Of a DNA stretch of 64,000 nucleotides, positions 36,889 through 63,083 are shown in pieces. Source of the DNA: Watersipora subatra (lineage: Eukaryota; Bryozoa; Gymnolaemata; Cheilostomatida; Watersiporidae). A program made the position numbers and the translations under genes. Position 1 is the first letter of the stretch, and the number at the start of each line of letters is the position of its first letter. Location: assembly GCF_963576615.1 (NCBI RefSeq), contig NC_088717.1, forward strand, positions 26,050,013 to 26,114,012, written 5' to 3'. The notes beneath the pieces are model-generated. The model saw only the letters and a program-made list of their open reading frames with translations. It was not told the origin of the DNA and did no database searches.

Positions 36889-36892
36889 TTTC

Positions 36893-36985
36893 ACATCTGC
36901 CTGAATTGGTTGGATAATGGTCTTCAACCTCTCTAGGCAAATAACCTCTTGATACCTTATCAACTGTATCATTGTAGTCAGCCAT
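36893..36985 (-). pseudogene. Cys-module family, A0 (orphan exon 1)
   Basis: Exon 1 of an A-type gene is intact from ATG 36985 through NSGRCE, then joins unrelated sequence at about 36893, so the donor and both downstream exons are gone. The upstream promoter-like region (CCAAT, GGAATTCC) and the minisatellite at 37.7-38.0 kb are still attached, so the loss is a deletion or block-boundary event rather than decay. Confidence 0.75.
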
Positions 36986-37724
36986 GGTTCAATATAGCAT
37001 TGTAGTTGTTTTCACATTACCTCTTTCCGCAGCACTGACTAGCTTGCAATACGAATAAGGCAAATGTCTACCAGATAAACCTGCAGCCTTTTGATTGGTC
37101 AATACTCAGACTGCTTAAAAGGTTTCTCACTCATTGGAATTCCTATTTTCCAAGTGCTGACTTCATTCTTATTGATCATGTTTGCATAATCCTTATCTCA
37201 TGTGGATACTGTTAGCAGTGACTTGCTGTCTTGAATTACTGCAGAAATAAGTAGACAGCTGAGTAACCAGTCTGAAATATAAAAGTCTCAAAGGATTACC
37301 AATATCAACATCTAATTTTTTAGATAAATGCTATCAAAGTACTGGAGGTATAAAGTATAAGCAATAGATGCGAAAAGTGCACACAATACGACAGATTTAA
37401 AAAGAGATGATCATCAATGCATGTTCAGACTCTGCACATATTTATGAATTTAAAGGTTTAACAGTGCTCTTGCTAAAGTCACAGACATCACTGACTTTTT
37501 TAGTTAGTCCAAGTGGAGCAAGCTAAGTGAAAATCATATTGTGCAACAAGACGGGATGTATTTACAGCTAATAAGAAGCCTTCAGCTTTTAATGCTTGTT
37601 TACTATCTACAATAATCACCATAAAGCAATATATATTATTTGCGTATTGATAGGATCTTTAATAGTTGTATTTCTGAATTTTTGAATTTTTAATGGAATG
37701 TTAATTGGCTGCATAAATAAACAT

Positions 37725-37935
37725 GCATGATAAACTTTCTCTAATGACATGTTAGTCAGCCATGAAAAGAAGAATGGAGGATAAACTTTCTCTAATGACA
37801 TGTTAGTCAGCCATGAAAGGAAGAATGGAGGATAAACTTTTCTCAATGACATGTTAGTTAGCCAGCAAAATAAGAAGGTGGACAATATATTTTTAATTAC
37901 ATGTTAGTTAGCCGAATGAATACAATTCTAAGTAA
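37725..37935 (-). repeat. Minisatellite upstream of A0
   Basis: Three to four copies of an approximately 61-bp unit with AATGACATGTTAGTCAGCCA and GATAAACTTTCTCT. The same unit lies upstream of A1 and A3. Confidence 0.8.
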
Positions 37936-38599
37936 ACTTTTGCCAATGACATATTAAAGTATCTAGAATTTCAAATTAAAACCCTAGATAACCAATAAAA
38001 TTTGATTTAATTCTTCCCTAATTTTGTGTTTGAGTGTTGCTATGTTAAAAGGAATTAGATAAAGTAATGTTTATAAATTGTTTTTATAAACCTGTGCAAC
38101 CCAAGACACTCAGCTAGTGTATATAAATCTTGGTGTTCGACAAACACCTGTGGGCTTCGCAAACTTGTGTTTCTGTCAAGTTTGAGGAATGAAAAATCAA
38201 CTTTGTACTAGATTTGTACTCAGAACATTTAGGTGTGCAAACCCGTGAGCTAACCTAATACAGTACACTATGTTTTTCATATTTTGAAATAATAGGGCAC
38301 ATACTTACAGATCACTTGCAAAAAAACTAGCACGCTTTAAGTTCATGATTGCGCTATAAATCAGTACACATTACAATGTCACAGGCTAGCTTCAGATGTA
38401 GAATACAGCTTATATTATAGTAAGTACCTAGCTTTACTAGCTTAAGTTTTTTAAAGTTATTAGGTAACTATTTTATTGTTTATACAATTCCGTACATTTA
38501 TTTAGTAAAACAGTATAAAACAGCAACAGACAATGCTTAAAAAAATTAAAAGCAATAATTGCTTAAAAGAGATACTTGTTTGCAGTTCTGTGGTTTTCT

Positions 38600-38965
38600 T
38601 TTTATAGTTAGCAACATCTACAGCGTGGATAAAAATACTCTCCTTTCATTGCTCATTCTTGTCTTCTTGCAGACATACTTTATTTACTTGTAGTGAGACT
38701 CATTCCCTTTTGCACCTTCTACTTGGTTGTAGTGATATTCTGTTCTCTCTGGTCCACAATATGTGAGCCTCGGTTTTAACAAAAAATGTTGTTAGCTCAT
38801 TCCTGCAATTAGGCAAGAGATAATAAAAAACATTAGATGCATTCAATCTATACTTTTGTTTTATACTCGCAAATCTGCGCTACATACATTGTCTGGTTCA
38901 CTGTTCTCTAGGTATTTCTGTTTTACCTCAGCATGCACTAACTTTGACACCTGATTATGGGCGGT
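38600..38965 (-). pseudogene. Cys-module family, D0 remnant
   Basis: Exon-3-like DNA (about 38.61-38.76 kb) ends with codons YFYPRCRCC and a stop, and exon-2-like DNA (about 38.88-38.96 kb) aligns with D1. Frames are interrupted, a short internal duplication is present, and exon 1 is missing upstream. Clearly a pseudogene. Confidence 0.7.
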
Positions 38966-39784
38966 ATTAAAAACATATCAGTAACATTAGTTGACTTATT
39001 ATTTGGAACCAAATGCTTGATTTATTCAAAGGCTTCAAGTCTTTAAAGTGGTCATTTCTTTTTTTACTCCAATTTCCCAGTGCTTTAAGATTGTTACTTT
39101 CCAAACACTAACAAGATTTTTATTGATTATATTTGTGCATTTCCTGTTTTGTACAGAGCAAGTTAGCTATTTAGGTTGATGGAAAGAAAGGCCAGCCATG
39201 AAAACATATGAGCTACTAGATATTACCTTATAAAGTTTTATGCTGAATCTTTAGGTGGTTTTATTTCATAGCTAGCCTACCAGATCTTATTTTCAAGAGT
39301 ACGAATAGAAACTTACAATTATCAATATTAACAATGGAGAAGTAACCAACTTATGATTTGGAAAAAGGTTTATTTTGTATTGAGAATTAACAGTCCATAT
39401 TATAAAGTATTTTTATCTAATTGCTGTTGTACAAAAAATTGTAGGTACTACAGTACACTACTCAAACTTAGCAAGTAGTGTAAGCACTACTGTACACTTT
39501 CCGTTCTTGAGTTGCACAACCTTCTTTCAGTTGCTCCTAGTTAGTTGGTTAATTGAGATGTATTTTCTTCAAGCTACAAGTTGTACAAGTAAATAGCCTT
39601 TAGATAATGTTTTTGTGACATATTATATCGTATGAGAACTTGATACGAGAACGTAATACAGTGCATACTAACATCATTTCATACTGATATCTTAATCATT
39701 CTTGGTCTGGCATCTCATACAATTGTAAAATTCAAAATAAAGTAGACAAAACACAAAACTTTATGACTGCTAACTTGTTAAACT

Positions 39785-40590
39785 ACTGGCTGATGTCATT
39801 ATCCATATCCTCTTTTACTTGGTCAACCTTGACAACTGCAGTTACAATAAAGATCTTTCTAATCATCTTGTCTCTCACTTTTTCCACTTGCAAGCAATGC
39901 AGTAATGGTATTTTTCATTTGATTTTCTAAAACCAGTTGTACTTACTAATGTTGACTTGTATATATATATAGTACTTTATTGGCAATAATTTCATTTCAC
40001 AAATAGAAATATTTTTCAAATTAGGCCATACAACAATAGTAAAACAAAAAAAAAGGGAAAAAAGCAACAGTTAGCAATTAAAATTGAATAAATAGTCTGA
40101 CAAATAGTGTTTAAAATGCCTTTCTCTGCTAAGAGAACGGATATTAGGTGGAAGATTGTTAAAGTAACTGGCAATGACATTCTCAAAATGATTGTTAGTG
40201 ATTGTATATTGTATATTGACTTGTCATATTTGCATGTAACAAAACCTACATAAATACAACAAATGGCTATTGTACTTCTTTTATGTGTTTTTAGTTTATA
40301 CTTGCAAGTTGACCTTACATCGACGACATTTGACCCATTTCAATGGCAAATCAATGTCAGTCGTACATTGCAATGATATAATATAAGTATTAACTATGCA
40401 ATGTGTTCAAGTTCCTCATGTTCAATTTTACAATTCTACAAGTTTTCATTGACTGATAAACTAAGAAGTACCCTGGTGCATAAAAACCTGCAGCACAATG
40501 TTCTTCAATTTTTGTTAGAAAGTAGCCTTTTGACCCCTGGCCAATTATATCATTGTATTCAACCACATTGCAGTACAATCTTTAATGTGT
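39785..40590 (-). pseudogene. Cys-module family, C0 remnant
   Basis: Exon-1-like DNA at about 40.49-40.58 kb reads EYNDIIGQGSKGYFLTKIEE with the usual ATG replaced by GTG. Exon-2-like DNA follows at about 40.30-40.37 kb and exon-3-like DNA, with a disrupted frame after ACKWK, at about 39.80-39.93 kb. It aligns throughout with C2. Confidence 0.75.
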
Positions 40591-41726
40591 GCTTTATCAA
40601 TGTTCTTCTTTTAATGCTGACAAGTTTATAGCCCAAAATTACTGTATTATATTGCATTGATGGCTTTTGATTAGCTCGTATTTCCTTTCATCCATACCTC
40701 GTTTCAGAATTCCTATTTTGTAAAGGCTGTAAGCATTCTTATTGAACATGTGTGTCACAATCTTAATTGCCTACAGAAACTGTTAGCTATATGATGCTGA
40801 CAAAAGACTAATGTCTTGAAGAGTGCAACATTAAATAGAAAGACAAGTAATACATATTTCTGTTACTATCAAAACCTGAGTTACATTTTACAGTTTTTAT
40901 GTTAAATCAAGACCATTTGGCTGAGCTCTAACAATGCGAAGTTAAAGCATTTGGATTTGTTAGTAAAATAATAATATTTATAGTTTGTTGGTACAATATG
41001 CCTTGCTCAAGTAATAGTTTAAAGTATAAAAACAAAGATTAAACGCTTTTACTGTTAATATCTATTTGTTTCAAAAAGTTGCTGTTTACATGTACATGTA
41101 AATGCAAATGTTTGTGTTAGCGCCAACTTATACAATTTTATTCAACTTCTACTATCAGGGTGCAAAGGAGCTAATTCTATCTAGAGCTTGCAGTTCAAGT
41201 AACCTACAGCAATTTATTGTATTGTTTCTTAGAGTCTGTACTAGATGGCAAAATATACTTTACTAATGTGACAATAGTCTACTTTCCTAGTGGCGTATTA
41301 GTTGATTAGATAAAAAAGTTATTGAGTTATTTGATACCAGAAGAGAGTGTGTATCCTACAATTGCTAATGTTTTCATCTTTGACAGAACTCAACTGGCAT
41401 GAGATTCTGGCATAGTTGATTGTTTATTGTTTTTTCAATGCAATTCTCAGAACTGATAATTATGGCTGTGTAAACTGTGAAGTATATTTTGCTTGCTCAT
41501 TCTGCACATACAGCAGTAAAAATATCATTTTCATACTTGGTTCATTTGATCAAACATGTAATTGGCAAAAGTATAATGATAGAATTGTGATAAGAACATA
41601 ATGGGTGACAAGAAATGCTACAAAGTCTATAAGCTATTGCTGCTCTATGTATTACTTCAATGGGATGTTGATTAAAGGTCTATGACTCAACTTAAACTTA
41701 TTATAAACACAAGCAGAAGGCCTCTT

Positions 41727-42609
41727 CTACAAGTAATTCTGGCAGTTGCAGTGACGGCGAAAGTACCTCTTTTTTCTCTTTTCATCGTACATCAGCCTCC
41801 ACTGGCAACTTTTATTGTAATGCTTCTCCCCTTCCGACTGTTGAAAACTAGAATATAAAATATCAAGGTCGTCTAGTAGAGCAAAGTTTAAAATCTTTTG
41901 CTTTAGCAAAGAAGTAAACACTTTATCAGAAAAGGTCAGTTATTGTATAACTACTTACTATTGGCCACAGCGACAGACCCTTGTCCATATCCAAACATTC
42001 CTTCCCCTTTCTGTTACTTTCTCTCTAAAAAAGTTAAAACGTGATGAGATATAAATTATGTTTGCATTTAAACAGTTGTCTAGTATATTGGCTAGTCTTT
42101 AAATTAGTAGATGATCATTCAGCTTCTTTTATGTTCTTATCTAGTCATTATTATGTTCAAATCAAACTGAAGTTTTGCCTATAGGTTCAGATATTTGTTA
42201 AAAATTTAAACTGAAGTAGTCTGTGTTTACTCCAGAAATATGGCAAGCTAGTTAAAATCAATAGGCATTAGAAAGTGGCTGTAAGAAATGCAGTTGGCTC
42301 TCAAGAAAAAAACAAAATCAAAAGTTGTATATACTTATACTACTGATGAGTTCTAAAACAAAATGAGAACATGTACATCAGGTACATGAAATGTGCCCCC
42401 AAATTAGCCATAACATGATTCTGTAGCTTAAACTAACATTTATGGTATGTGAGAATGGTAGTTAATGTTACTACAAGCTAACTAAGATCACATATGTTTA
42501 CTTACTTGCGATATGTACAAAGAAAACCGGGTTCATGCCTATCTTCTACAACTGTAGGAAGATAACCTCTGTTTGGTTCAGTGTCAGGACTATCACCATC
42601 GTCTGCCAT
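41727..42609 (-). CDS. Cys-module family, B-type gene B1 (3 exons, 96 aa)
   Basis: Exons 42609-42506, 42024-41959 and 41847-41727 join in phase 2 at GTAAGT donors and TAG acceptors, giving 96 residues. The start is the ATG of MADDGDSPDTEPNRGYLPTV, followed by the conserved VVED. There is no signal peptide or membrane segment. Module 1 is CTYRKEKVTERGRNVWIWTR then VCRC; module 2 is CQWRLMYDEKRKKRYFRRH then CNC, with 18 residues between the first Cys and C-x-C. The family is unknown to me; cysteine spacing fits either disulfides or metal binding. It is the first intact gene of the leftmost block, between C0 and A1. Module 2 starts CQW rather than CKW, and the tail (QNYL) is longer than in B2/B3. 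Confidence 0.8.
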
Positions 42610-43741
42610 TGTAAATGAGTAATACTATAACTAACCTTCTTGCTTTAATGATGAACTTGTGCTAACTGAAGCATTGCTTTGCATCATTTGTGTGGCATAT
42701 ATACAAATCTAAGCCATCTCATTGGCTGGTTATACTGCTTCAACCAGTCACCTCCAATCAGCTCACTTAATTTGTTGTAGTAAGACAAATAGAAAAAAAC
42801 CCCTGACATTCATTTTTCCACGACCAATAGGAATCTCAAAGCCTAATGTCATGCATCATGCGTAGAGCTATATAATCAAATAAGATTCCAAAGCGGCTGA
42901 TGCAATATCAGGACTAACTTACTCTGTGATTGCTTGTCATAATTTCATTGGCTCTTTACTCGAATGTTTGCGCTTTTCAACCTATTACACACACTACTAG
43001 TGATTACATGCTGCAGCTGAAAAATCAATGAGCACTTAGAATTACCGTCGGAAAAAACAGGATAGGTACTTTCCCTTCGCAAGGACAAGTATCCAAGCCT
43101 TAGTACTTCTACTAACATATCAAGAACTTGGCAATTTTACTGTTTATTATCTGGCATTCACTTTTACCCTTATAAAGCCTGTTCATGCTTGGGTCATTGA
43201 AGTATTGAAGTTTTAGTAAGAGTAGGAAATGACACAATCCACTGCAATAGTTTTAGTCATGTCACACTTTATTCTTTTTGATGATTCAGGTTCAATCAGT
43301 TCTAAGGAAAGTGCTGGTACAACAACTAGTATCTTCTTGTCTTCAAATATGTCTTATAGTCAATGCATGTTCCTACTCACATCCATTTTATTGCAGTACC
43401 GAAATGTGAGTTATTATCCTTTAACCTTGTACTAGGCTCTAGTTTGGGGGTAAAATTGACCAACTTATTTATGAGTTGAATGTATTCGAATGTATTTTTG
43501 ACAAACTAAAGCATTTTTAGATGATGTTTTTAAAAGAAGTTAAAAAAGATGTCGGGGTACTTTGCTCTCATAGAAATAAGCTTCATTGTTTTACTTAATT
43601 TCATTAATACAAGAATAATATACAATAATTACAACAAAATAAGGGGAGCATTATTTGCATAATGTTATATAGAACTCTTATCATGGATATATGGTGAAAT
43701 TGACAACGAAATTGTTAATGAATGTTTGAAATTATATAATT

Positions 43742-44303
43742 TCATCTTCGGTTTGGAGGTTGGCGGCATATACATCTGCGGTAAAGATAGACTTTTCCAT
43801 TTTCCTCATCTGTCACTCTCTTCCACTTGCAAGCTTGGTTGTAGTGCGGCTCCTTATGTTGTGGACTAAAATACGTCAAACCATTATCCAGCGCATCATT
43901 GTTTTCCACTCACTGTTTGAAAACACACAGACTATGTGATATATTCATTGTAGTTACTTTTTTTTATTGTGTACTTACAGTTTAGCTTGGCAGCGACAGT
44001 ATCTGGTCCATCTCTCGTTAGGTATTGTTACTCCACCTTGACACCCACTAACTCGTATCCCTTGTTCGCTACTGTAATACAATGTATAGCATATTTGAGT
44101 TAAATCATTTTTTCCAACTCATCTATACAACTCATGTTTAAATTACAATGACCAAATCATTTACTTGAAGTTTTTATAAATTGAGAAGCAACTTACACTG
44201 ATTGGTATTCACATCTGCCTAAATTGGTCGGATAATGGTCTTCAACCTCTCTAGGCAAATAACCTCTTGATGCCTTATCAACTGTATCGTTGTCATCAGC
44301 CAT
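43742..44303 (-). CDS. Cys-module family, A-type gene A1 (3 exons, 107 aa)
   Basis: Exons 44303-44197, 44071-43979 and 43865-43742, all junctions phase 2 with GTAAGT donors, encode 107 residues. The N-terminus is MADDNDTVDKASRGYLPREV with no signal peptide. Cysteines follow the A pattern: C31 in CEYQ, C46 in SGCQGG, C61/C63 in ERWTRYCRCQ, C79 in ACKWKRV, C98/C100 in VYLYRRCIC, and a basic tail RQPPNRR. It has one more Cys (C46) than the six-Cys B core. CCAAT and GGAATTCC motifs lie within 200 bp upstream. The predicted product is small, soluble and intracellular unless a hidden leader exon exists. Confidence 0.85.
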
Positions 44304-46640
44304 GGTTCAAAATAGCTTTGTAGTTGTTCCAATGTTACCTGTCTCTCTAACACTGACTAGCTTGTAATATGGATAAGGCAAATGTTTAATAAGCAACCAT
44401 GCAGCCTTTTGATTGGTCAATACTCAGACTGCGTAATAAGTTTCTCACTCATTGGAATTCCTATTTTCCAAGCGCTGACTTCATTCTTATTGATCATATT
44501 TGCGTAATCCTTATCTCATGTAGATACTGCTAACAGTGACTTGCTGTCTTAAATAACTACAGAGAGAGGTAGACAACTGAGTAACCAGTCTGCAATATAA
44601 AAGTTTCAAACGAATACGAATATCAACATTTATTTTTCAGATAAATGCTATCAAAGTACTGGAGGTCTGAAGTATAAGCAATAGAATCACGAAGTGCAAA
44701 CAATAGATTTATAAAAGGATGATATCAATGAATGTTCAAAGTGCACGTGTTCATGAATTTAAAGGTTTAACAGTGCTCCTGCTAGAAGTACAGACAACAC
44801 TGACTTTTTTAGTTAGTATAAGTGTAACAAGCTGAGTGAAAATCGTAATTAGCAACAAGACTGGATGTTTTTACAGCTAATAAGAAACCTTCAGCTTTTA
44901 ATGTTTGTTCACTATCTACAATGATCACCAGAGAGCAAGAACTAGTTGTGTATTGAAATGACTTTTGCTGATTGTATGTCTGATTGTTTTACCTTCTATT
45001 AGCATTTTAATTGGCTGCATGAATAATCACACAGAATAAACTTTTTCTAATGACATGTTAGTCAGCTATGAAAACAAAAATGTTGAGTGAACTTTTTATA
45101 ATGACATGTTAGTCAGCCGTAAGAAAAAGAATGAACATTGAGTAAACTTTATGTAATGACATGTTAGTCAGCCGGAAAAATATATTGTTGACAAAATCTT
45201 TTTGATGACATGCTAGTTAGCCGAATGAATACAATTCTAAGTAAACTTCTGCCAATGGCATGTTAATTAGTCTTATCAATTAAGATGCTGAATAAGTGAG
45301 CTAGCATTAACTAATATTTGACCTGAAAAATAATGAAATCTAGTCATTCGCTACAGCTCATTAATTTTTGGAGAAGCAATGATAATTATCAAAAATATGT
45401 GCTTATGTAGTAAATTTTTATTTATTATATTTGTGAGTGTTCACCAATATAAATCAGACTACATTTGAAAGCTGTAACAAATTAGAAATATAGCTAATCA
45501 AGCATGGCTAACAGTTAAAACAACATCTTCTATGAAAAAAGTATCTAGAATTTCAATTGAAACGCTAGATAACCGTTACAAGTTGATTTAATGCTTCACT
45601 AACCTTGTGTTTGAGTGTAACCATGTTGAAGTATTGCAGGGTTGTAGTGTTTTCTAAATTCTCTTGCTACTAATAAATTTTGAGACTTTGTGACAGAGTT
45701 CAACAAAACATGTACACAATTGATTTTGAAATAGATTCAATTAGACTTTTGATTGTTTGTTAATAATAACATCAACTGATTACATCCAATCATTCCTGAT
45801 ATTTTTGTTAAGCTTTAGAATTTATCATGTGATCAAATCTTTAGAGTAAAAAAGTTTTCTGAACTGGAAATCATAGTAGACCTCTCCTTCTTGGCACTGT
45901 TGGCTCATCTGTTTTCTGTGCTGCCAGTTGCTGGCAGACAAACTGGCGAATAGTTGTAGCAGACTTATGAACATAACCTTCTATGATACTCTTGCATGAC
46001 TCATGTAACATACATGTACATGTTCAAATGCAAACACCGTAATTTACTGCATTTAAAAAGCATTACACTAATGAAGCAACAAATAAATTTAGCTACAGAA
46101 ACTTTTTACGAGAGACTTGTAAAATCTTAAATAGATACGGTAAATGATCCATCTCGTTCATATTGTATCATTTTTAATAATATTATACAGCTAATGGGCT
46201 GTCTCACTATTTTAAGTAAAACTACCCATTTGTACATATTTATTGAAACTATTTAAAACAGTGATTTTCTTAAGACATCTACTTGATTACATAAAATTTT
46301 AACCGGTTTCAAGGCTTAAAAGTATTTATGTCTAAAGTATTATAAACACCTGCGTTACAAATAGCCTTAAACTAACTGTATTGCTGCATTTATACAAAGT
46401 GACCATCAGCTCAAATAGATTGTACAAAATAATAGTGCAGGCCATTATTGATAAAAATTAAAAAAGTAAAATTTTTTAATGACATGTTATTCAACTGTGT
46501 AAATGAGAATGCTGTTATTTTTTACTAGGTTACATAATAACAACGAAATGTGACTGATTATGAAAACGGCGAAGTTTATTTGGTTGAACGCTTTTGTAAT
46601 TACGGCGTGGTCTTGCTGTTACAAAATCTTTTCTGTTCAT
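44304..46640. other. Intergenic region upstream of A1
   Basis: This holds the A1 promoter region (duplicated upstream of A0, A2 and A3), a minisatellite at about 45040-45260 with the AATGACATGTTAGTCAGC unit, and then AT-rich DNA with no coding signal. Confidence 0.6.
45040..45260 (-). repeat. Minisatellite upstream of A1
   Basis: About four diverged copies of a 55-60 bp unit containing AATGACATGTTAGTCAGC; homologous to 37725-37935 and 63795-63995. Confidence 0.8.
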
Positions 46641-48186
46641 AGTATGCACATACACCAAAATAGCACAGCATTAGCTTATGTCAAAGTTCAATCAATAATG
46701 AATAAATATCTTTCATGATTAAGCCAAGCCATGGTTTAGAGCAAATGCAACGACAGCAACTGTGAAGTTTGTTTTCACTTCATCACAGAGCGCTACGCAT
46801 TTGCATTGCTTTACGTTATGTTCTTTAACGATTATAGATTTGAATGGTAAAGTATTAAGACTATGACCTAAAACAAAGTTGTACCAGGGCTATATGGCTT
46901 TGAGAAATAAGATATCAAAATGGTGACCTAAAGCACATAGATACAAAGGCTATGACTAAAAATAAGAAAACACCTGTCTGAAGCAATAAGGTACTAAGTC
47001 TATGACTTAAAAAATATACAAATTTAGCGGCTATACAGAAAATAGAGATTGATCACTAAAAGTTTTAAAACTCTTTAAATAATGCCATAATTATTGACTC
47101 TCTGTTAGTCAGTCATAGCTGAGTTATTACTATTATTTGCAGATGCATCTACTTGTTCACTGCCAAGTTACTTCATGGACTATTTTACTGAAAAAAATAC
47201 ACAGAATTTACGAATAAAAAAGATATAGAATGTGAGGTAATTAAAACCCACAGACATTGCTAACTAACTGACTAGCACATTTATACCTGCTGATCAATTG
47301 CCAAATGTATTTGGAAATTTTTCTCATCATCAGTTTCTAGAAGTTTAAATGAAGTAATAGGCTAGCTATGAAAACTGAGTCTTGAAACTTCAAACATGTT
47401 GTCAAAAACCTCTCAGGCTCAATTCAACAAAATTAGTCTACTTCTTACACATTGGAACAAGGTTACAGAATTTACAACAAACTTGCACCAATATGCAAAC
47501 AAGAATTCAAAACTATCATTACACGTCGGAAAAGTTCCTATGACGAGAGAATATAACTTTAGTTTTCTCGGCTAATGTAACAGCAAACGCAGTAAACTTT
47601 TTTACTGCTGCAATAATTGAAGCAGCATTGTTGACTCTTTAATGTCTGTACCAGCTACATTTTTTATGCGTCTTTAATAGCTTTGAGAAGATAACTTCAC
47701 GAAATCCCTGAGTCAGCGTTGTCACTGTCGTCTGCCATTGTTTAAACTTAATAATGTTATTCCATATGCTGCTCAGGTGCTTCTTGAATGTGTACTTAGT
47801 TTTGTTGAAGCAATCTGTGATGCAATACTAGGTCTCAATTGCAAACAAAAGGTTAATAGATTCAAATGTCAGCTATTTAATAGCTATGTTTGTCTAAAGA
47901 TTTATTGATCAATATCAATTACTTGCCTTACAAAAAATGAACTCGAGCTTAATGATTAGAATGCAAAAAACCAATCGCATATTTTTGTTAATATGTTATG
48001 GTGATCAGCGCAGCTTCACTAGCTTTGCATAGTTATATGCTTGTTCTAAATCGGTCTCTTACATCCTTCACACAATAGTATTTGATGCTGCTGGGGAAAT
48101 CAATAGAAGGAAAAAACTAAACGGTACTTCCCCTCGACACACTGGAACAACTGTGACTAGGTGCATAAAGATCTAGCCTTGATAGC
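46640..48186 (-). pseudogene. Cys-module family, E-type remnant E1
   Basis: A duplicate of 35.33-36.89 kb. A minus-strand ATG at 47738 reads MADDSDNADSGIS before a stop; the following bases still resemble the exon-1 continuation (SYLLKAI) out past two more stops. No other exons are recognisable. The segment ends at the same GATCTAGCCTT boundary, where D1-block DNA (CACATAGCTAGGATCTG) begins. Confidence 0.6.
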
Positions 48187-48690
48187 AGCACATAGCTAGG
48201 ATCTGTAATCACATGATGTTCTCTTTTGCCCATCAAAATAAACAAAAAGTGAGATTTAGCATTTTTTATTTTTCTCTGTTGTCTTTAGCGCAAGTTTACA
48301 TAGGACTAGTTAGTTCCTTAACTAGCATCTCTCCGTCATTTATAATTCTTTACAAGTCAAAATTTAGACACAAAAATTTGAATGTATCATAAGATCAGTT
48401 TAGCTAGACACAAAAAATTACTTGTATCTCAAAATTTCTTTTATTATGCATGAATTACAAGAATGTCTTGAAACACTAAAAGTAATGCAATAAAAGTAAT
48501 AACATTATCAAGGTTATTGTTGATCAAAATGAATGTAATGACTCGAAGATACAATAAGTAAAACATAGAACTATATAAAACAGTAATGGACAATACTTAA
48601 AATATGGTTTGCAGTTTTACGGTTTCTTCTCTTTTAGTTGGTGACACCTGCAACGTCGATAGAGATAGACTTTTCCATTTTCCTCATCCT

Positions 48691-49177
48691 TTACTCTCTT
48701 CCACTTGCAAACACCTTTTTTTTGCTGTAGTGATATTCAGTTCTTTCAGGTCTAAAATATGTGATTCTTAGTTTCAATGAACAATGTTATTAGCTCATTC
48801 CTAGAATTAGGCAATAGATAATAAAACCGTCGAATGCATTTAATCTATACTTTTGTAATGTACTCACAAATGAGCGGTACATACACAGTGTCTAGTCCAC
48901 CGTTCCTTAGGTATTGTTGTTGCACCTTGGCATGCACTGACTTTGACACCTGATTCAGGGCTGTAATACAATGTATGGATAACATTGATTGACTTATCAT
49001 TTCAAACTAAATGCTTGAAGTTTCTTCAAAAACTCAATTTCGAAATATTGCCTTTGAGCTTTGTTCTTACAATGAATAGTAGTTACACTCTCCAGAAGAG
49101 GTTGGATAATGTTCTTCAACTTCCGTTGGCAGCCGGTTCTTTTTATTTTCATCAACTTGATCACCATAATCCGCCAT
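48691..49177 (-). CDS. Cys-module family, D-type gene D1 (frame ends early; possibly a pseudogene)
   Basis: Exon 1 (49177-49071) begins MADYGDQVDENKKNRLPTEV; exon 2 (48960-48868) carries SACQGATTIPKERWTRHCVC; both are intact with good donors. Exon 3 begins at 48751, but after EYHYSKKK the frame shifts at a run of eight A residues and stops at 48691, giving 86 residues and only module 1. The rest of exon 3 (down to 48617) still encodes a complete module 2 in another frame: GVCKWKRVKDEENGKVYLYR then RCRC. D2 has the same offset. Either the type lost module 2 in an ancestor, or it uses a splice or frame choice I cannot see. Confidence 0.55.
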
Positions 49178-49659: not shown

Positions 49660-49810
49660 TATAAATACTATTTTACACTACTTAGATTTAGTACTATCAG
49701 TGTAAGTACTACAGTACACTGCTTAGACTTAGTATTACTAGTGTAAGTACTGCTGTACACTACTTAGACTTAGTACTATTAGTGCAAGTATTATTGTACA
49801 TTCCATAGAC
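49660..49810 (-). repeat. Short tandem repeat, TACACTACTTAGACTTAGTA type
   Basis: About three to four copies of a roughly 42-bp unit with GTGTAAGTACT; a shorter version is at 57625-57690 and traces are at 39440-39500. It lies 0.5 kb upstream of D1 and D2. Confidence 0.7.
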
Positions 49811-51604: not shown

Positions 51605-52762
51605 GTTGCAATGCAACATTTAACCTGTTCTTTAGCAATGTTCCTCTCTCAATGCTGACAAGCATACAGACCAGAACTACTGTATGACGTTACATTTTAT
51701 TGCTAGCTTTTGATTGGCCAACATTCCCTTTCATCTGCCCCTCGTTTTGAAATTTTTGTTTTCCAAATGCCATTTGCATTTTTATTGAACATGTGTCGCA
51801 ATAAGACTCGAATACAGATACTGTTAGCTATATGATACTGGCAAAACAAACTTAGTGTCTTAAATAGTGTGATGGTAAATAAAAAGGCAAGTAATACAGA
51901 TTTGTGCTGCTAGCAAAGCTCTGAATGCATTTTATAGTTTGTTTGCTAAATTAAGACCATTAGATGAGCTTTCATAATAGAAATTAAAAATATTTGGATT
52001 TGTTGGTTATCGTGGGACCTTTGTTGGGTGTGATAATGTGCCTTGCCCAAGTAACAATTTAGCAACATCAAAACAAAAATTTTTACACTTTTACTGAGAA
52101 AACGTGCCTGTTTCAAAGTGTAGCTATTGAAATTTATTTGCAGTTGTTTGTGTTATCGGCAACTTGTATACTTTTACTCAACCTCTACAATTACGGTGCA
52201 AAAGAACTAGTCTTATTTACAGCTTGCAGTTCAAGTAACATTCAGACATTTATTGCAGTGTTATTTTGAGTCTGCAATAGATAGCAAAATATATTTTCCT
52301 AATGTGACAATGCTACACTTTTCTAATGGCGTGTTAGTTGATTAGATAATATTATTATTGAATTATTTAATTTCAAAAGAGAGTGAGTATGCATCCTACA
52401 GTTATTAATGCTTTTATATTGGACTGGACTTTACTGTCATTAGAATGTACAGTTATATGTTTACTGCCTTTTTCATAACAATACTCAAAACTGTTAATTT
52501 TGGCTCTGTGTAATGTGACATATTTATTACCTGTTCATTTCACACCCACACGCAGTAGTAAAACAACTTTTTTCATACTTGGTTCAACTAACCAAACACA
52601 TATTCAACAAAAGCACAACAATAAAATATGATAATAACAAAATGGGTGATAAGAAATGCTACAAAGTTTACAAGCCCTTGCTGATTTATGTGGTACATGG
52701 GATGTTGATTAAAGGTCTATGACCAAACTTAGACCATTATAAACACAAGCAGAAGGACTCTT

Positions 52763-53713
52763 CTACTGCTGGCAAAAACAGCAACGGCGAAGATACCTCT
52801 TGTTTCTTACTTCATCATAGATCTTCCTCCATTTACAACGCCTTTCATAATGCTGCTCGGATTTTGAGGAACTAAAAGGTAAAATATTAGAGTCATTTAG
52901 TAGAGTTGAGTTTAAAATCTACTGCTTTATCAAAAAAGTAACAGTTTATCAGAAAAAAAACAGTTATCATATAACTACTTACTATTGACTACACTGGCAG
53001 TCTCTTGTCCATATCCAGACATCCCTTCCCCTTTCCCTTACTTTCTCTCTAAAAAAGTAAAAATGTAATGAGTTATAATTTCTGTTTGCATTCAAACAGT
53101 TTTCTGACTTGTTGAATAGTCTTTACATCGGTATATAATCAGTCAGCTCCTTTTATGTTCTTAACTAATCATTATCATGTTCAAATCAAACTGAAACTTT
53201 GCCTTTAGGCTCAGATACTTGTTAAAAATTCGAAATACATTAGTTTTTGTTTACTCTGGAAATAAAGCAAACTACTTGAAATCAGTAAAAATGCAATTGG
53301 TTTTTCAAGAAGTAAATCAAATCTAAAGTTGTATATACTTATACTACTAGTTAAAGTTAATGTGTGTGTGTATTTGTCTCAGTAAAAAAAATAAAAATGT
53401 TTGAATATGTATGCCTTTTGTTTCACTACTGATGAGTTCTGAAACAAGTTAAGAACATTTACATAAAGGTGCAAGAAGCGTGCCCCCAAATTAACCATAA
53501 CATGATTTCATAGCCTAAACTAACATTTATAAACTTCCAGCATAAAAAGTATGAGAGAATCGTAGTTGATGTTTCTACAAGCTAATTAAGATTATATATT
53601 TCTACTTACTTGCGATATGTACAAGGAAAACCAGGTTTGTGCCTATCTTCTACAACTGTAGGAAGATAGCCTCCTAAGTGTTCAGTGTCTGGACTGTCAC
53701 TATCATCTGCCAT
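52763..53713 (-). CDS. Cys-module family, B-type gene B2 (3 exons, 92 aa)
   Basis: Exons 53713-53610, 53048-52983 and 52871-52763 give 92 residues. The N-terminus is MADDSDSPDTEHLGGYLPTV. Module 1: CTYRKEKVRERGRDVWIWTR then DCQC. Module 2: CKWRKIYDEVRNKRYLRRC then CFC, an adjacent extra Cys preceding the C-x-C pair. The two modules are visibly alike (C-x-[YW]-R ... R ... R-x-C-x-C), arguing for internal duplication. All exon junctions are phase 2. It lies between C1 and A2 in the middle block. Confidence 0.85.
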
Positions 53714-54857
53714 TGTGCACAAGTAATACTTCTACTAACCTTCTTGCTCAAGCACTGAACTGATGCCATTTGACGCCTTGTATTACTTGGCTGAAATACA
53801 TTCAGATTCAGCCTATTTTATTGGCTGATCATTCTGCTTCAACCAATCTTCTTTAATCGATAGACTTAGTCTGTTGTAATAAATCTAATGGAAAAAACCA
53901 CTGACATTCATTTTTCCACGATCAATAGGAATGTCATGTCAAGCATGTCATGTCATTTGCCTAAGCATAATATGTAGAGCTATATAATCAAACAAGATTC
54001 AAAACCTGCTGATGCAATATCAGGACTAACTTATTCTGTGATGGCTTGTCGCAATTTCATTGGCTCTTTACTTGAATGTTTGCGCTTTTTCAATCTATCA
54101 CGCACACTACACATGACTACTTGCTGCAGTTGAAAAGCCAATGAGTGCTTAGAATTGCTGTTGGAAAAAACAGGTTAGGTACTTTCCCTACGCAAAGGCA
54201 AGTATCTAAGCTCTAGTACTTGTACTAACAGATCAAGACTTTACCGTTTTACTGTTTACCATCTGGCGTTTATTTATACTTTTTAAAAGCTTTCTCATGT
54301 TTGGGTCATCGAAGTATTGAAATTTGAGTAGGACTAGTGAGTTACACAATCTACTGCAACAGTTTTAGTCATGTCACACTTTGCTTTACTCGCTCATTCA
54401 GGCTCAATCAGTTCAAAGAAAATTGCTGGTACAACAACTTGTATCTTCTAGTCTTCTAATATGCCTCATAATCAATGCGTATCCATATTCATATCCATTT
54501 TATTGTATTACTGAAGTGAGAGTTATTATTCTTCAATATTATACTAGGCTCTAGTTTGGGGGTGAAATAGAATGTGTGAATTGATTATGAGATGAATGTA
54601 TTTGAATGTATTTCTAAAAAACTAAAGCTTTTTTAAATGATCTCTTTGAAAAAAAGTTAAAAAAATTGTTGGGTCCTTTGCTCTCATGGAAATGAGCTTC
54701 ATTATTTCACTTAATTTCATTAACACAAGAATAATATACAATAATTACAACAAAATAAGGGAAGTGTTATCTGTAAAATGTTATATAGAACTCTAGTCAT
54801 GGATATATAGTGAGATTGACAACAAAATTGTTAATGCATGTTTGAGATCATATAATT

Positions 54858-55417
54858 TCATCTTCGGTTTGGAGGTTGGCGGCATATACACCTGCGGTAA
54901 AGATAGACCTTTCTATTTTCCTCATCTTTCACCTTCTTCCACTTGCAAGCTTTGTTGTAGTGAAGCTCTTTACGTTGTGGACTAAAATACGTCAAACCAT
55001 TATCCAGCACATCATTGTTTTCCACTCACTGTTAGAGAACACACAGACTATGTGATATATTCATTGTAGTTACTTTCTTTTTATTGTGTACTTACAGTTT
55101 AGCTTGGCAGCGACAGTATCTGGTCCATCTCTCATTAGGTATAGTTACGCCACCTTGACACCCACTAACTCGTATTCCTTGTTCACTACTGTAACACAAT
55201 GTATAGCATATTTGAGTTAATTCAATTTTTCCAACTCATCTATACAACTCATGTTTAAATTACAATGACCAAATTTACCTGAAGCTTTTATAACTTGAGA
55301 ATCAACTTACACTGATTGGTATTCACATCCGCCCGAATTGGTCGGATAATGGTCTTCAACCTCTCTAGGCAAGTAACCTCTTGATACCTTATCAACTGTA
55401 TCGTTGTAGTCAGCCAT
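54858..55417 (-). CDS. Cys-module family, A-type gene A2 (3 exons, 107 aa)
   Basis: Exons 55417-55311, 55188-55096 and 54981-54858 give 107 residues, very close to A1 and A3. Starts MADYNDTVDKVSRGYLPREV; seven cysteines at residues 31, 46, 61, 63, 79, 98 and 100; signatures IPNERWTRYCRCQAK and CKWKKVKDEENRKVYLYRRC; tail ICRQPPNRR. No signal peptide, no membrane segment. The CCAAT/GGAATTCC upstream region is conserved. The upstream minisatellite seen at A0, A1 and A3 is cut short here at about 56150, where the D2 block starts. Confidence 0.87.
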
Positions 55418-56569
55418 GGTTCAATATAGCTTTGTAGTTGTTCTCATGTTACCTCTCTTCCTAACACTGACTAGCTTGCAATACAAATAAGGCAAATGTT
55501 TAATAAACAACCATGCAGCCTTTTGATTGGTCAATACTCTGACTGCGTAAAAAGCTTTCCACTCGTTGGAATTCCTATTTTCCAAGAGCTGACTTCATTC
55601 TTTTTGATCATATTTGCGTAATCCTTATCTCATGCAGATACTGCTAGCAGTGACTTGCTGTTTTAAATTACTACAGAGAAAAGTAGACAGCTGAGTAACC
55701 AGTCTGAAATATAAAAGTCTCAAACAAATATAAATATCAACATCTATTTTTTAGATAAATGCTGTCAAAGTACTGGAGGTCTGAAGTATAAGCAATAGAA
55801 TCACAAAGTGCAAACAATAGATTTATAAAGGGACGATATCAATGAATGTTCAAAGTGCACGTATTTATAAATTTAAAGGTTTAACAGTGCTCTTGCTAGA
55901 GGTACAGACAACACTGACTTTTTTAGTTAGTATAAGTGAAACAAGCTAAGTAAAAATTGTAACAAGTAACAAGACTGGATGTATTTACAGCTAATAGGAC
56001 ACCTTCGGCTTTTAATGTTTGTTTACTATCCACAATGATCACCAGAAAGCAGTAACTATTTGTGTATTGAAATGACTTTTGCTGATTGTATGTCTGATTG
56101 TTTTACCTTCTATTGGCATGTTAATTGGCTGCATGAATAATCATGCAGCACATAGCTAGGATCTGTAATCACATGATGTTTTTTTGCCCATCAAAATAAA
56201 CAAAAAGTGAGATTTAGCATTTTTCATTTTTCTCTGTTGTCTTTAGCGCAAGTTTACATAGGACTAGTTAGTTCCTTAACTAGCATCTTTCCGTCATTTA
56301 TAATTCTTTACAAGTCAAAATTTAGACACAAAAATTTGAATATATCATAAGATCAGTTTAGCTAGACACAAAAAATTACTTGTATCTCAAGGTTTCTTTT
56401 ATTATGCATGAATTACAAGAATGTCTTGAAACACATGAGCAATAAAAGTAATTACATTGCCAAGGCTATTGTTCATCGGCATGAATGTAATGACTCAAAG
56501 ATACAATGAGTGAAACATAGACCTATATAAAATAGTAACAGACAATAATTAAAAGATTTTGTGCAGTTT

Positions 56570-57133
56570 TATGATTTCTTCTCTTTTAGTTGGTGAAACT
56601 TGCAACGCCGATAAATATAGGCATTTTCATTCTCTTCATCTCTCACTCTCTTCCACTTGCAAACACCCTTTCTTTGTTGTAGTGGTATTCAGTTTTTTCC
56701 GGTCTAAAATATGTGAGACTCGGCTCCATTAAACAATGTTGTAAGCTCATTCCTAGAATTAAACAAACAATAGATAATATAACCATCAAACACATTTAAT
56801 CTATACTTTTTGTAATATATTCACAAATGAGCTGTACATACAGTGTCTAGTCCACCGTTCCTTAGGGATTGTTTGTTGCACCTTGGCATGCACTAACTTT
56901 GACATCTGATTCAGGGCTGTAATACAATTTATAAATAACATTGGTTGACTTATCATTTCAAACTAAATGCTTGAAGTTTATTCAAAAACTCAATTTCGAG
57001 ATAATGCCTTTGAGCTGTGTTCTCACAATGAATAGTACTTACACTCTCCTGAAGAGGTAGGAAAATGTTTTTCAACTTCTGTTGGCAGCCGGTTATTTTT
57101 GTTTTCATCAACTTGATCACCATAATCCGCCAT
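56570..57133 (-). pseudogene. Cys-module family, D-type D2 (frame disrupted)
   Basis: Exon 1 (57133-57027) is intact and almost identical to D1 (ECKYYS at its end). Exon 2 (about 56.84-56.92 kb) has small length changes relative to D1 (one extra T and a two-base loss) that break the frame within GATNNP. Exon 3 (about 56.58-56.70 kb) preserves a CKWKRVRDEENENAYIYRRC-like module 2, offset as in D1. Probably a recently disabled copy. Confidence 0.7.
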
Positions 57134-59022
57134 GTTTCAGTGTATCTTCAGTGGAATAGCTGTCTCAACTCTGATTGGTACATAGCTTATCTAATATGTA
57201 ATGAATAGTAATGAAGTTTTTAGATTGGTCATTTACTTTCTTGCTCAAACGTAGCGCTTTGGGTTTTTTACTTTACAAACTCTAACAAGATTTTTATTGA
57301 TTATATTTGTACAATCTTTGTTTTGTACAGAGCCAGCCAGCTACACTAGGTTGATGAAAAGGTGCGCAGCCATGAGAACATATGAGCTACTAGACATTGG
57401 TTTGCAGAGTTTTATGCTGAATTTTTAAGCGGTTTTACATTATAGCTAGTCGTTCAGATCTGATTTTTAGGAATACAAATAGAAACTTATATAATAAATA
57501 TCAGTTTTCAAAATAGAAAAACAACCAACTCATGATGAGAAAAAAAGGCTCATTTTGTATGGAGAATTAACAGTCTTTATTAGAACAATTTTATCTAATT
57601 GCTAAGTTGGAAAAACTGGTGTAAATACTACTGTACACTACTTAGAGTTAGTACTATTAGTGCAAGTACTAATGTACACTCTATAGACTTGAGAAATAAG
57701 AAGAAGGTTGGCTGTAACATTTGAAGTAAGATTTTAAGACAAAGGACTGCAACAGATGTGTCAAAAAGATCTTCTCTAGAACAACTTTACCACTTTTATA
57801 GAGCAACACACCATGTTATAGAGCATGCACTAGTCCCACATCTACGCAGATCATGTAGTAAGTTCTCAAGGGTTTTCTCAGCGTTGGAAGCACAGCAAAC
57901 GCTTCAGTAGTGTCATTCTCCCATCAAGACAAACAGATATTACTTAAAGCATATATCCAAATTCTTAGCCAGGAATGTGATGATCTTTGACAACAGTTTA
58001 GTTCAAACCTTCATACCTATCTGCCATTTCTCAAGTATAAATTCTTTTTAATTTTGATTGCTGGCCACTGCTATAACTTATCTTGTTTAGATCAACTTTT
58101 CCCACACACTTAGAGCATTTACTTCTCTTTACTTACAGTTTAGAGCATTTACTTCTCTTACTTCAATACCATAAACATGTTAGCAAGTTGGCTCACTATT
58201 TAGAAAAATACCTATATTTCCTTCATAAAACTATTACAAACTTGGAAATTCAAATAGAAATAGTTATTCTGTGAACTACATATAACTCAAATCCTTAACT
58301 AACTTACAGATCTTAAATGCACAAAGACTTTGTAAATTTGCTATTGAATGTGACTGGATGTGTTGGATTACTAACACTGCTGTCAAGCATGGCTGTGCTA
58401 TTATTGGCTAATTACCAGAATATCTATTTTACATGAGCCTATCATATGCTGTACACGTCATTACTTATTATTGTTCAGTAATCAATGAGAGCTTGGAATT
58501 CCAAGTTGGAAAAAACTGCTGGGTACTTTTTTCACGCAAGAGGGAGCATTCATCTTAGTTTCATGTTAGTCAGTATGGTTTCACTATCAGCAATGCTGTT
58601 TATTGAGCCTGTCTTATGAAAATAGTTTTCAACAATCAGCTGTTGATGTGCACCTTTAGTTGCTGAATCAGTTTGCTTGTGAGTCTATTTTGAGATTTGA
58701 ATTTTAACTAACTTGTTTTGTCATCAACACAGATGATGATAAACTATTTTCATTCTTGAATTAATTCCTTTTCACTTGCTTTTAGTTTACCAGTTAAAAT
58801 GTGTATTTTTAAACTACATGTTGTACAAGTAAATAGTCTTTAGACAGTGTATTTGTGACTGTTTTATGATATGAGAGCATGACGCAGCCTGTATTAACAT
58901 TGCTTCATACTGACATCTTAGTCATTCTTTGTCTGGCATTCTCATACAAATACAACATTCTATATAAACAGACAAGTGACAAAACTATGACTGCAAACTC
59001 GCTCAACTTTTTGCTGCTGCTA

Positions 59023-59544
59023 TTAAAATAGCAAGCATCCAGAACTCTCTTCACATGGTGGACCTGTACAATTGCAGCGACGATAAAGGTAGACTTTTCT
59101 AGACCTCTCGTCTCTCACTTTTTTCCACTTGCAAGCATTACTGTAATGGTACTCTTCATTTGCTCCACTAAAACCAGTTGTACTTACTAAAGATAACTTG
59201 TTCCTAAATGTCACTTACATACAAACAACTTATAGCCATTATAGTCATCGTATTTCTTTTATATGTATTTAACATATACTTACAAGTTGGATTGACACTG
59301 ACAATGTCTGACCCATTTCCATGTAGAGTTGCCCAAATACCTGCAATGCGATGGTATAGTTTGAGTATTAACTATGTGATGTGTTCTAGTTTATTATGAC
59401 TATATCTACAGTTTTACAAGTCTTCATAAACTTATAATTTAAGAAATACCTTGTTGCATAGAAGCAGGCAGCATAATGCTCTTCAACTTCTGTCTCTAAG
59501 TAGCCTCTCGACCTTTGATCAACTGTATCGTAGTAATCAGCCAT
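59023..59544 (-). CDS. Cys-module family, C-type gene C2 (3 exons, 98 aa)
   Basis: Exons 59544-59450, 59340-59284 and 59167-59023 give 98 residues. The N-terminus is MADYYDTVDQRSRGYLETEV. Module 1: C27-F-Y ... TWKWVRHCQC (17 residues between C27 and C45). Module 2: C63-K-W-KKVRDERSRKVYLYRR then CNC (18 residues), then two further cysteines in TGPPCEESSGC. It is the only intact C-type copy; C1 and C0 are pseudogenes. Its extra C-terminal Cys pair sets it apart from A and B. Donors are GTATTT and GTAAGT. Confidence 0.85.
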
Positions 59545-60537
59545 GTTGCAATATAATCTTTAACCTTTAACCTGTTGTCTAGTGATGCTTCTCTCTCAAT
59601 GCTGACAAGCATACAGCTCAGAATTACTGTATTACATTACATTGTCTTACTGGCTTTTGATTAGTCAATATTCCCTTTCATCCATATTTTGTTTTGGAAT
59701 TCCTATCTTCCAAACGCCATTTGCTTTTTTATTGAGCATGTGTCGCAATAAGAATTGCATACCGATACTGTTAGCTATATGATACTGGCACAAAACTTAG
59801 GGTTATGAAAAGTGTGATGTTAAATAGAAAGTGAAGTAATATGTATTTGTTTTACCAGCAAAATGTGAGCTGCATTTCATCATTTGTTTGTTAAATAAGG
59901 AAGATTAGGCTAAGCTTTAACAACATGCATCTAGAATATTTAGAGTTGTTGGTTGTCATGGGAACCTTGTCACAAACACACTATTTTGAGTGTGACAATG
60001 CGTCTTATTCAAGTAATAGTTTACTACTATGGAAACAAACGGTTTTACACTTTTACTGATGAAATGTGTTTGTTTCAAAGTTCAGTTATTTACATGTATC
60101 CACAGATGTTTGTGTTAGCATTAACTTGTGCACTTTTACTCAATTTACTTGTACAATCAGAGTGCAAAGGAACTAGTCTTGTTATGTTTTATCTATGACT
60201 GTACTCAACTGGCATGACAATGCACAGATAAGTGTTGATTGTTTTTTATAACAATGCTCCAAATCATTGACTCTGGCTGTGTGTGATGTAAGATATGTAT
60301 TGGCTGCTTATTCCGCACATACAGCAGTAAAAATATCATTTTCATACTTGGTTCATTTGATCAAACACGTAATGGGCAAAAGTATAGGGATAGAATTGTG
60401 ATAAGAACATAATGGGTGACAAGAAATGCTACAAAGTATACAAGCTATTGCTGCTCTATGTAGTAATTCAATGGGATGTTGATTAAAGGTCTGTAACTAA
60501 ACTTAAACTTATTATGAAAACAAGCAGAAGACCCCAT

Positions 60538-61432
60538 CTATGGCTGACAGAAACAGCGCCGGCGAAGGTACCTCTTTTTTCTCACCTCATCATAGATAGC
60601 CCTCCACTTACAACGCCTCTCAAAATGCTTCTCCGACTCTGGGAAACTAAAAAGTAAAATGCCAAAGCCATCTAGTAGAGTAAAGTTTAAAATCTACTGC
60701 TTTATCAAGAAAGTAAACATTTTATCAAAGACGGCTAGTTTTCATACACATGTAACTACTTACTATATTCCGCAGCGACAGTCTCTTGTCCATATCCAAA
60801 CATCTCTTACCTCTTCCCTTACTTTCTCTCTAGAAAAATTATAAAGTGTTGAGTTATAAGTTCTGTCTGCATTCAAACAATTTACTGACTTGTTGGTTAG
60901 TCTTTGCATCGGCAGATAATTCTTCAGCTTTTGTTATGCTTTTGTTTAGGCATTATCATGTTTAAATTTAACTAAAGCGTTGTTTCTAGGCTCACATATC
61001 TGTTAAAAATTCAAGCTTAAGTAGTCTGTGTTTACTCCAGAAATATAGCAAACTACTTGGAATCAGTAGAAATTAGAGAGTGGCTGTAAGAGATGCAGTT
61101 GGTTCTCAAGAGGGAAATGAAATGCAAAGTTGTATATATTTATAGTACTGATGAGCTCTAAAGCAAAATTAGAACATGTACATCAGATACATGAAACGTG
61201 CCCCCAAATTAACCATAACAGGATACTGTAGTCTAAACTAACGTTTATAAAATTTGCAGGATAAAAGTTATGTGTGAATGGTAGTTAATGTTGCTACAAG
61301 CTAACTAGGAACATATGTGTTTACTTACTGGCGATATGTACAAGGAAAATCAGGTTTGTGCTTATCTTCTACAACTGTAGGAAGATAACCTCCTGGGTGT
61401 TCAGTGTCTGGACTGTCACTATCATCCGCCAT
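60538..61432 (-). CDS. Cys-module family, B-type gene B3 (3 exons, 92 aa)
   Basis: Exons 61432-61329, 60829-60764 and 60646-60538 give 92 residues. The N-terminus is MADDSDSPDTEHPGGYLPTV. Cysteines lie at 31, 52, 54, 69, 88 and 90, making two C-x(18-20)-C-x-C modules: CTYRQEKVREEVRDVWIWTR/DCRC and CKWRAIYDEVRKKRYLRRR/CFC. This is the simplest member and shows the module duplication best. Rich in Arg/Lys and Asp/Glu; no leader. The upstream GGAAAAAAC ... TACTTTCCCTAC(G/A)CAAAG region is conserved with B1 and B2. Confidence 0.87.
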
Positions 61433-62520
61433 TGTGCACAAGTAATACTTTTACTAACCTTCTTGGTCTAGTGCTGAACTGATGCTATTTGAAGCGTTGC
61501 TTTGTATTACTTGTCTGAATACATACAGGTTCAGCCTATCTTATTGGCTGATTATTCTGCTTCAACCAATAATCTCCAATCAATAGACAGTCTGTTGCAA
61601 TACATCTAATGGAAAAGACCACTAACATGAATTTTTCCATGACTAATAGGAATCTCAAAACTTAATGTCATGTGCCTAAGCATTATGTATCGAGTTATCC
61701 AATCAAACAAATATAATCAAACTCACTTATTCTGTGATGGCTTGTCACAATTTCATTGGCTCTTTACTTGAATGTTGCGCTCTTTTAATCATCACACATC
61801 ACACTCACTGCACATGACTACTTGTTGCAGCTGACAAACCAATGAGTGCTTAGAATCACTGTTGGAAAAAACAGGTTAGGTACTTTCCCTACACAAAGGC
61901 AAGTATCTAAGCCCTAGTACTTGTACTAACAGATCAAGACTTAACCGTTTTACTGTTTACCATCTGGCGTTTATTTCTACTTTTTAAAAGCTTTCTCGTG
62001 CTTGGGTCATTGAAGTGTTGAAATTTGAGTAAGACTAGTGAGTTATACAATCTACGGCAACAGTTTTAGTCATGTCACATTTTGCTTTACTCGCTGATTC
62101 AGGTTCAATCAGCTCTAAGGAAAGTGCTGGTACAACAGCTTGTATCTTCTTGTCTTTAAATATGCCTAATAATCAAAGCATGTTCATATCCATATCCATT
62201 TCATTGTATTATTGAAATGTGAGTTGTTATCCTTCAATCTTGTACTCGGCTCTAATTTGAGGATAAAATTGATTGTGTATTTTGTTTATGAATTGAATGT
62301 ATTTGAATGTATTTCTGAATAACTAAAGCATTTCCAAATGTTCTTTCTTAAAAGCAAGTTAATAAAGTTTAATTATTTTACATAATTTTATTACTACAAG
62401 AATAATATTAATTACACTAAAATAAAGTGATGGGTTATCTGAATAAAGTTAAATAAAACTCTTACCATGGATACATGACAAAACTAATAACAAAGTAGTT
62501 AATGAATGCTTGAAATTATA

Positions 62521-63083
62521 TTATTTTATCTTTGGTTTGTAGCATAGACACCTGCGGTAAAGATAGACCTTTCCATTTTCTTCATCTCTCACTCTCTTCC
62601 ACTTGCAAGCTTTTTTGTAGTGCAACTCCTCACGTTGAGGGCTAAAATAGTACATCAAACCATAATCAAGAGAACATAATTGTTTTCTATTCATTGTTAG
62701 AGAACACACAGATTATGCGATATATTCATTGTAGTTAATTTTTTTAGTGTGTACTTACAGTTTAGCTTGGCAGCGACAGTATCTGGTCCATCTCTCGTTA
62801 GGTATAGTTACTCCACCTTTACACCCACTGTATCTTGTCCCCGGTTCGCTACTGTAATACAATGTATAGCATATTTGAGTTAGTTCATTTTTTCAAACTT
62901 ATTTATACAACTCATGTTTAAATTACAATGAACCAATCATTTACCTGAAGCTTCCATAACTTGAAAAGCAACTTACACTGGTTGGTATTCACATCTGCCT
63001 GAATTGGTTGGATAATGGTCTTCAACTTCTCTAGGCAAGTAACCTCTTGATACCTTATCAACTGTATCGTTGTAATCCGCCAT
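62521..63083 (-). CDS. Cys-module family, A-type gene A3 (3 exons, 106 aa)
   Basis: Exons 63083-62977, 62851-62759 and 62641-62521 give 106 residues. MADYNDTVDKVSRGYLPREV at the start; IPNERWTRYCRCQAK; CKWKRVRDEENGKVYLYRRC then LCYKPKIK at the end, so its tail differs from RQPPNRR of A1/A2. Same seven-Cys pattern. Spacing, splice phase (2/2) and upstream CCAAT (63191) and GGAATTCC (63234-63241) are as in A1/A2. Confidence 0.87.

Follow-up and report, generated by a model that had tools for sequence, protein, structure and literature searches.

What is encoded by the run of small genes that crowds one part of chromosome 10 in the cheilostome bryozoan Watersipora subatra? The stretch of DNA that raises this question, C10:26050013-26114012 (hereafter the window, 64,000 nucleotides in all), lies on a chromosome, C10, that measures 61.08 Mb in the published assembly (PMC12902671). 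It contains 15 loci of one gene family, all on the minus strand, comprising seven intact three-exon genes (A1 to A3, B1 to B3, and C1) and eight decayed ones. Four members, all from W. subatra and here termed P0001 to P0004, are already annotated as gene models, and the family greatly exceeds the window, with further F and H types to its right. Our account of the whole, which is tentative and which we judge to fall somewhat short of an even chance, is that these genes encode leaderless two-module zinc proteins in an array that evolves by birth and death, perhaps under the control of Rel/NF-kB.

The evidence that carries this account begins with the residues that the proteins share. Across 36 distinct copies of the second module, a count that includes decayed copies but no truncated fragments, such as two from F1 and F3, the pattern is E-x-H-Y-x3-C-x-W...C-x-C, with the Glu retained in 33/34, the His in 34/34, the first Cys and the Trp each in 36/36, an Asp in 33/36, a Tyr in 33/36, an Arg in 31/33, and the last two Cys in 36/36 and 34/36. 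The four candidate ligands of a His-Cys3 module, namely the His and these three Cys, are conserved together; the Glu and His positions are absent from D1 and D2, in which the frame is broken just before them, and the last Cys is absent from C2 and D1. A preliminary description of this DNA had placed exactly 18 residues between C-[KQ]-W and C-x-C, and the spacing is indeed constant in all seven intact window genes, but the 18 residues lie between Cys and Cys, that is, 16 after the Trp. Its view of module 1 as a looser version of the same plan agrees with our finding that the pattern E-x(1,2)-H-x(3-10)-C-x-[YW]-...-C-x-C, which was formulated after viewing the proteins, is present in all 11 distinct intact A, B, C, F, and H proteins. 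In P0003 and P0004 this pattern picked up only module 2; module 1 can be made out by eye there as V-Q-E-H...C-H-Y...C-x-C. The histidine in each module is a new feature of the signature. The B-type genes had also been said to show the two modules as clear internal repeats, which does not hold for the genes taken singly (shuffle p of 0.16, 0.53, and 0.53 for B1 to B3), nor for A1 (0.12) or C1 (0.30); A2 (0.01) and A3 (0.02) do support a repeat, and profile-profile comparison of the two modules gives modest support for a common origin (HHalign E 0.0019, probability 14%).

All seven intact window genes splice cleanly, with GT..AG borders and phase-2 introns; exon 1 encodes MAD...GYL...VE-[DE] and ends past the first C-x-Y, exon 2 supplies the remainder of module 1, and exon 3 supplies module 2. 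A1 is identical letter for letter, start codon included, to P0001, which NCBI/UniRef lists as an "uncharacterized protein", so an independent annotation arrived at the same product and the same start. Beyond the window, F2 equals P0002 but for one residue, which lies at an exon junction.

Small cationic Cys-rich products, tandem birth-and-death arrays, and kB-like promoters form the usual profile of immune peptides, and the family displays much the same combination, its products being small and Cys-rich with isoelectric points of 7.5-9.4 (neutral to cationic, 11 proteins). They might, then, be secreted, disulfide-bonded effectors, antimicrobial or similar, that leave the cell by non-classical export or by way of a leader exon that has been missed. 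We consider this unlikely. The N-termini of all 11 proteins tested are hydrophilic, with no evident signal peptide; those of P0003 and P0004 were judged by eye. Genes of the A and D types carry an in-frame stop immediately 5' of the ATG with no splice acceptor in between, and the NCBI model of A1 begins at the same Met. Those of the F, H, and P3/P4 types have a TATA-like motif 82-97 nt upstream of the ATG, from which it can be argued that transcripts begin in the ATG exon; H1 has a short upstream ATG frame in the interval from this motif to the start codon. Together, these sequence features argue against an upstream leader exon, and a start codon without a leader, as had been claimed at the outset, is well supported. 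Moreover, the number of Cys per protein ranges from 6 to 8 and is odd (7) in A1 to A3, B2, P0003, and P0004, that is, in 6 of the 13 distinct intact proteins, with an even number in the other 7, and a secreted disulfide-bonded peptide would leave the invariant His unexplained.

The preliminary description could place the signature in no family that it knew, and our searches bear this out. P0001 to P0004 carry no functional name, P0002 to P0004 being three further "uncharacterized" relatives of A1, and none has a precomputed Pfam domain. In a set of 5.8 billion proteins, relatives were found from W. subatra only, in a search that needs shared five-residue words and could thus miss distant relatives, and a protein search with a B/C-type alignment returned five candidates, none at E <= 10. 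None of the family proteins searched matched Pfam-A or NCBIfam above a curated cut-off. Below the cut-offs, B1 matched Zn_ribbon_CSL (PF05207) at 15.2 bits against a cut-off of 29.2, with no match for A2 or C1; P0003 matched DUF1922 and RiPP_SkfA (SkfA 18.3 bits, cut-off 45, E 0.0017), and P0004 matched mini_HHHH. Sequence searches of PDB chains gave no significant match (best E values 1.5, 1.1, 0.68, and 5.8), and an Rfam scan of the window found nothing at gathering scores. The literature searches turned up no mention of the His-Cys family, and the words "cysteine", "immune", and "orphan" do not occur in the main text of PMC13326412. As far as searched, the data support an undescribed family of proteins, encountered to date in Watersipora alone, the one bryozoan whose genome was searched. 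They also bear on the idea that these proteins are a highly diverged offshoot of some known family of extracellular modules ending in C-x-C, such as the cystine-knot cytokines, von Willebrand factor type C (VWC), fibronectin type 1 (FN1), and the like. The C-x-W...C-x-C ends do resemble such families, but with no Pfam or NCBIfam match above cut-off, none of significance in PDB, and no leader, this origin strikes us as decidedly unlikely. Particular likenesses to IL-17, noggin, FN1, and VWC were dropped since no match was found.

The preliminary description counted seven intact and at least seven decayed three-exon genes, with proteins of 92-107 residues, between positions 36893 and 63083. Exon-profile scans and spliced models confirm the seven intact genes and their protein lengths and put the decayed loci at eight; the loci within that interval are real, but the array extends past the window. 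Exon 1 was detected at 14 of the 15 loci, and D3 was added from its exon 2 and 3 remnants. Two loci score weakly, namely exon 1 of C3 (E 0.05, with exon 3 also weak) and, at 47738, an E-type remnant (E 0.05), the best value in a reversed-sequence control of the scans being E 0.62. Following the direction of transcription, the first set in the window consists of A1 (63083-62521; 106 residues; exons 63083-62977, 62851-62759, and 62641-62521), B1 (61432-60538; 92 residues; exons 61432-61329, 60829-60764, and 60646-60538), C1 (59544-59023; 98 residues; exons 59544-59450, 59340-59284, and 59167-59023), and the decayed D1 (56578..57133), which has frame breaks in exons 2 and 3. A second set consists of A2 (55417-54858; 107 residues; exons 55417-55311, 55188-55096, and 54981-54858), B2 (53713-52763; 92 residues; exons 53713-53610, 53048-52983, and 52871-52763), C2 (51124..51604), decayed through stops in exon 1 and a C-x-C without its last Cys, and D2 (48626..49177), in which exons 1 and 2 are open and the frame of exon 3 is broken, a disruption common to D1 and D2. 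The weak E-type exon 1 remnant (47700..47738) is followed by A3 (44303-43742; 107 residues; exons 44303-44197, 44071-43979, and 43865-43742), B3 (42609-41727; 96 residues; exons 42609-42506, 42024-41959, and 41847-41727), C3 (39878..40566; faint remnants of exons 1 and 3), and D3 (38720..38951; remnants of exons 2 and 3). Then come A4 (36887..36985), with exon 1 as the sole exon recognised, and a second E-type exon 1 remnant (36355..36435, listed at 36435), the left-most family locus detected. The order A-B-C-D occurs three times, so that blocks of four genes were probably duplicated as the array grew, with which large repeats spaced 7.3, 11.1, and 7.7 kb also agree.

A scan widened to 244 kb, which took in the window with a flank of 40 kb on its left and one of 140 kb on its right, listed no family exons at E <= 0.5 either in the left flank or in the window's first 36 kb. 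On the right, the array continues with family exons on both strands to C10:26.34 Mb, including, by eye, three intact F genes, an H gene on the opposite strand, and remnants; P0003 and P0004 map to this right part, and scattered copies lie elsewhere. A genome-wide search with P0003 gave at least 67 exon matches at E <= 10; among the matches listed, 39 have E <= 0.001, of which 30 fall within C10:26.09-26.35 Mb and the remaining nine on contigs C11 (3), C6 (3), C135, and C3 and at C10:5.9 Mb. This scatter over other contigs, together with the high copy number and the orphan status of the family, is what might be expected if it were the relic of a mobile element or of a virus once captured. We find that origin scarcely credible, as the introns and promoter motifs are conserved and searches of prokaryotic and viral contigs yielded pattern matches with no relative confirmed. 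Weaker P0003 matches (E 0.003 and above) occur at C10:54.3-55.4 Mb. Within C10:54476800-54477700 and C10:54511200-54512100, near-identical last exons recur about every 230 or 317 bases; they represent a diverged branch of the family (ICRCGKYSQMD...CKCYKPML, then a stop) with acceptor-like sequence before each, and may possibly be tandem alternative last exons. No exon 1 was recognised in the 2 kb read upstream of the copies at C10:54.47 Mb.

The promoters offer a lead as to when the genes might be used. An element, GGAATTCC, lies 158 nt before the ATG of A2 (55568..55575, minus strand), at the same distance in A1, A3, and A4, and at -159 in C1. Five of nine promoters (A1, C1, F2, P3, and P4) carry this element or GGGRNNYYCC no more than 200 nt from the ATG, as against 71 of 4,876 tiles (1.46%) of the 244-kb stretch taken as background. 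Among 17 upstream regions, the strict kB form is found in F1 to F3 only. By eye, metal-response, heat-shock, AP-1, CRE, STAT, GATA, and ISRE motifs form no pattern common to different subfamilies. The kB-like elements are perhaps a lead for Rel/NF-kB control of the family.

Taken together, these observations suggest a working model in which each module would consist of a short lead segment with the conserved His, followed by a probable beta-hairpin running from C-x-[YW] to C-x-C, and one zinc ion per module would most likely be held at the hairpin's open end by the His together with the three Cys. In A1, residue counting would place C79 opposite C98 across the hairpin and H74 five residues before C79. 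A metal site of the His-Cys3 kind is preferred over a plain disulfide peptide because the His is as invariant as the Cys, each module has three Cys, Cys counts are often odd, and there is no leader. We infer that each protein is a two-zinc unit acting inside the cell, since there is no evident signal peptide and the 6-8 Cys are odd in number in 6 of 13 proteins. At the level of the array, blocks of A-B-C-D would duplicate, and copies would diverge or die, with exons probably swapped between them. The Rel/NF-kB-type elements common to several subfamilies would fit stress- or immune-induced expression and, by extension, an immune or stress role.

Several points weigh against this zinc-protein account. 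The module 2 copies were collected through similarity to a profile that already held the residues in question, which favours conservation; nevertheless, His and Cys are more strongly retained than the remaining positions in those copies. In H-type copies, module 2 ends in C-x4-C. In structure prediction, which the preliminary description had proposed as a check, AlphaFold2 (AF2), run on P0001 with exon-fragment alignments, draws the module 2 hairpin in both models, but at low confidence (mean predicted local distance difference test scores of 41.8 and 44.8), and a Foldseek comparison of the second model with PDB found nothing at E <= 0.001 (best 0.25), a result that is meaningless at that model confidence. 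The kB-like motif is absent from the promoters of B1, D2, H1, and the C11 copy; it was picked post hoc among twelve, and since paralogous promoters are not independent, its nominal probability is too small. Only four annotated members were returned, with B, C, A2, and A3 not among them. Finally, intron divergence (0.03-0.27) is close to that of exons taken whole and is exceeded by synonymous divergence (dS), from which exon exchange among paralogues is probable, inflating dS and blurring any test of selection.

The last two points, along with the decay of 8 of the 15 window loci, also fit a mostly dying array, in which one or a few copies (A1, F2, P0003, and P0004) still make protein and the rest of those with open frames are relics of recent date that exchange keeps alike. 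In six within-subfamily pairs (A/A and B/B), however, the ratio of nonsynonymous to synonymous divergence (dN/dS) is 0.17-0.33, with a synonymous excess in all six (Fisher test p <= 0.0016); indels between these exons are frame-preserving only, and splice sites are intact in all seven intact genes. We therefore regard a mostly dying array as very doubtful, and constraint on the protein sequence, even with numbers weakened by exon exchange, is the likelier and well-supported reading. A bolder version of the zinc-protein account, in which two tandem His-Cys3 hairpins form a new zinc fold of bryozoan origin and a cluster of more than 250 kb encodes rapidly turning-over, Rel/NF-kB-induced intracellular effectors of a phylum-specific immune or stress system, is in our judgement improbable, though we give it some weight.

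The surroundings of the array have features of their own. Near A-type units (37676-37876, 45033-45131, and 63789-63938) there are one to several copies of a 51-base repeat that surrounds ATGACATGTTAGTCAGCC. Right of the window and inside the gene array, C10:26119600-26139850 is occupied by very long plus-strand tandem repeats made up of SFSVAVFQCCSLSVLQ units. Elsewhere in the window, two tandem repeats are open on the minus strand, one at 3879-4522 (ERNSPSR units) and a long one at 6874-8065 (repeated QCKQLWFTLCNDNASNCGSLYA). Plus-strand exons at 9317-13004 encode the C-terminal part of a lipid transfer protein resembling BLTP1, and 26267-28065 holds a HIRAN-like stretch (minus strand, below cut-off) and an F-box exon (plus strand, 27712-28065). 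Retroelement pieces lie at 388-2368 (by eye) and 29207-30938, the latter with a reverse transcriptase match at 30267-30938.

The family is of interest as a large, apparently constrained, and unnamed bryozoan group that has a sharply defined residue signature and is represented by 13 distinct, intact proteins. If the metal reading is true, it adds a new module type to the small zinc proteins; if the immune reading is true, it offers a way into an effector system particular to this lineage, in a phylum whose immunity is, to our knowledge, little known. Among known proteins, P0001 to P0004 belong to the same family, P0001 being A1 and P0002 being F2 beyond the window. The His-Cys zinc modules with C3H-type sites are similar in having one His and three Cys as potential ligands in a module of ~30-40 residues and in lacking a signal peptide, but no Pfam model scored above cut-off for the present arrangement, H...C-x-[YW]...C-x-C about a single hairpin. 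Defensin-like tandem arrays share the birth-and-death organization, the small Cys-containing products, and possible kB-type elements, whereas the W. subatra family is set apart by its leaderless proteins, of which 6 of 13 have an odd number of Cys, and by its invariant His.

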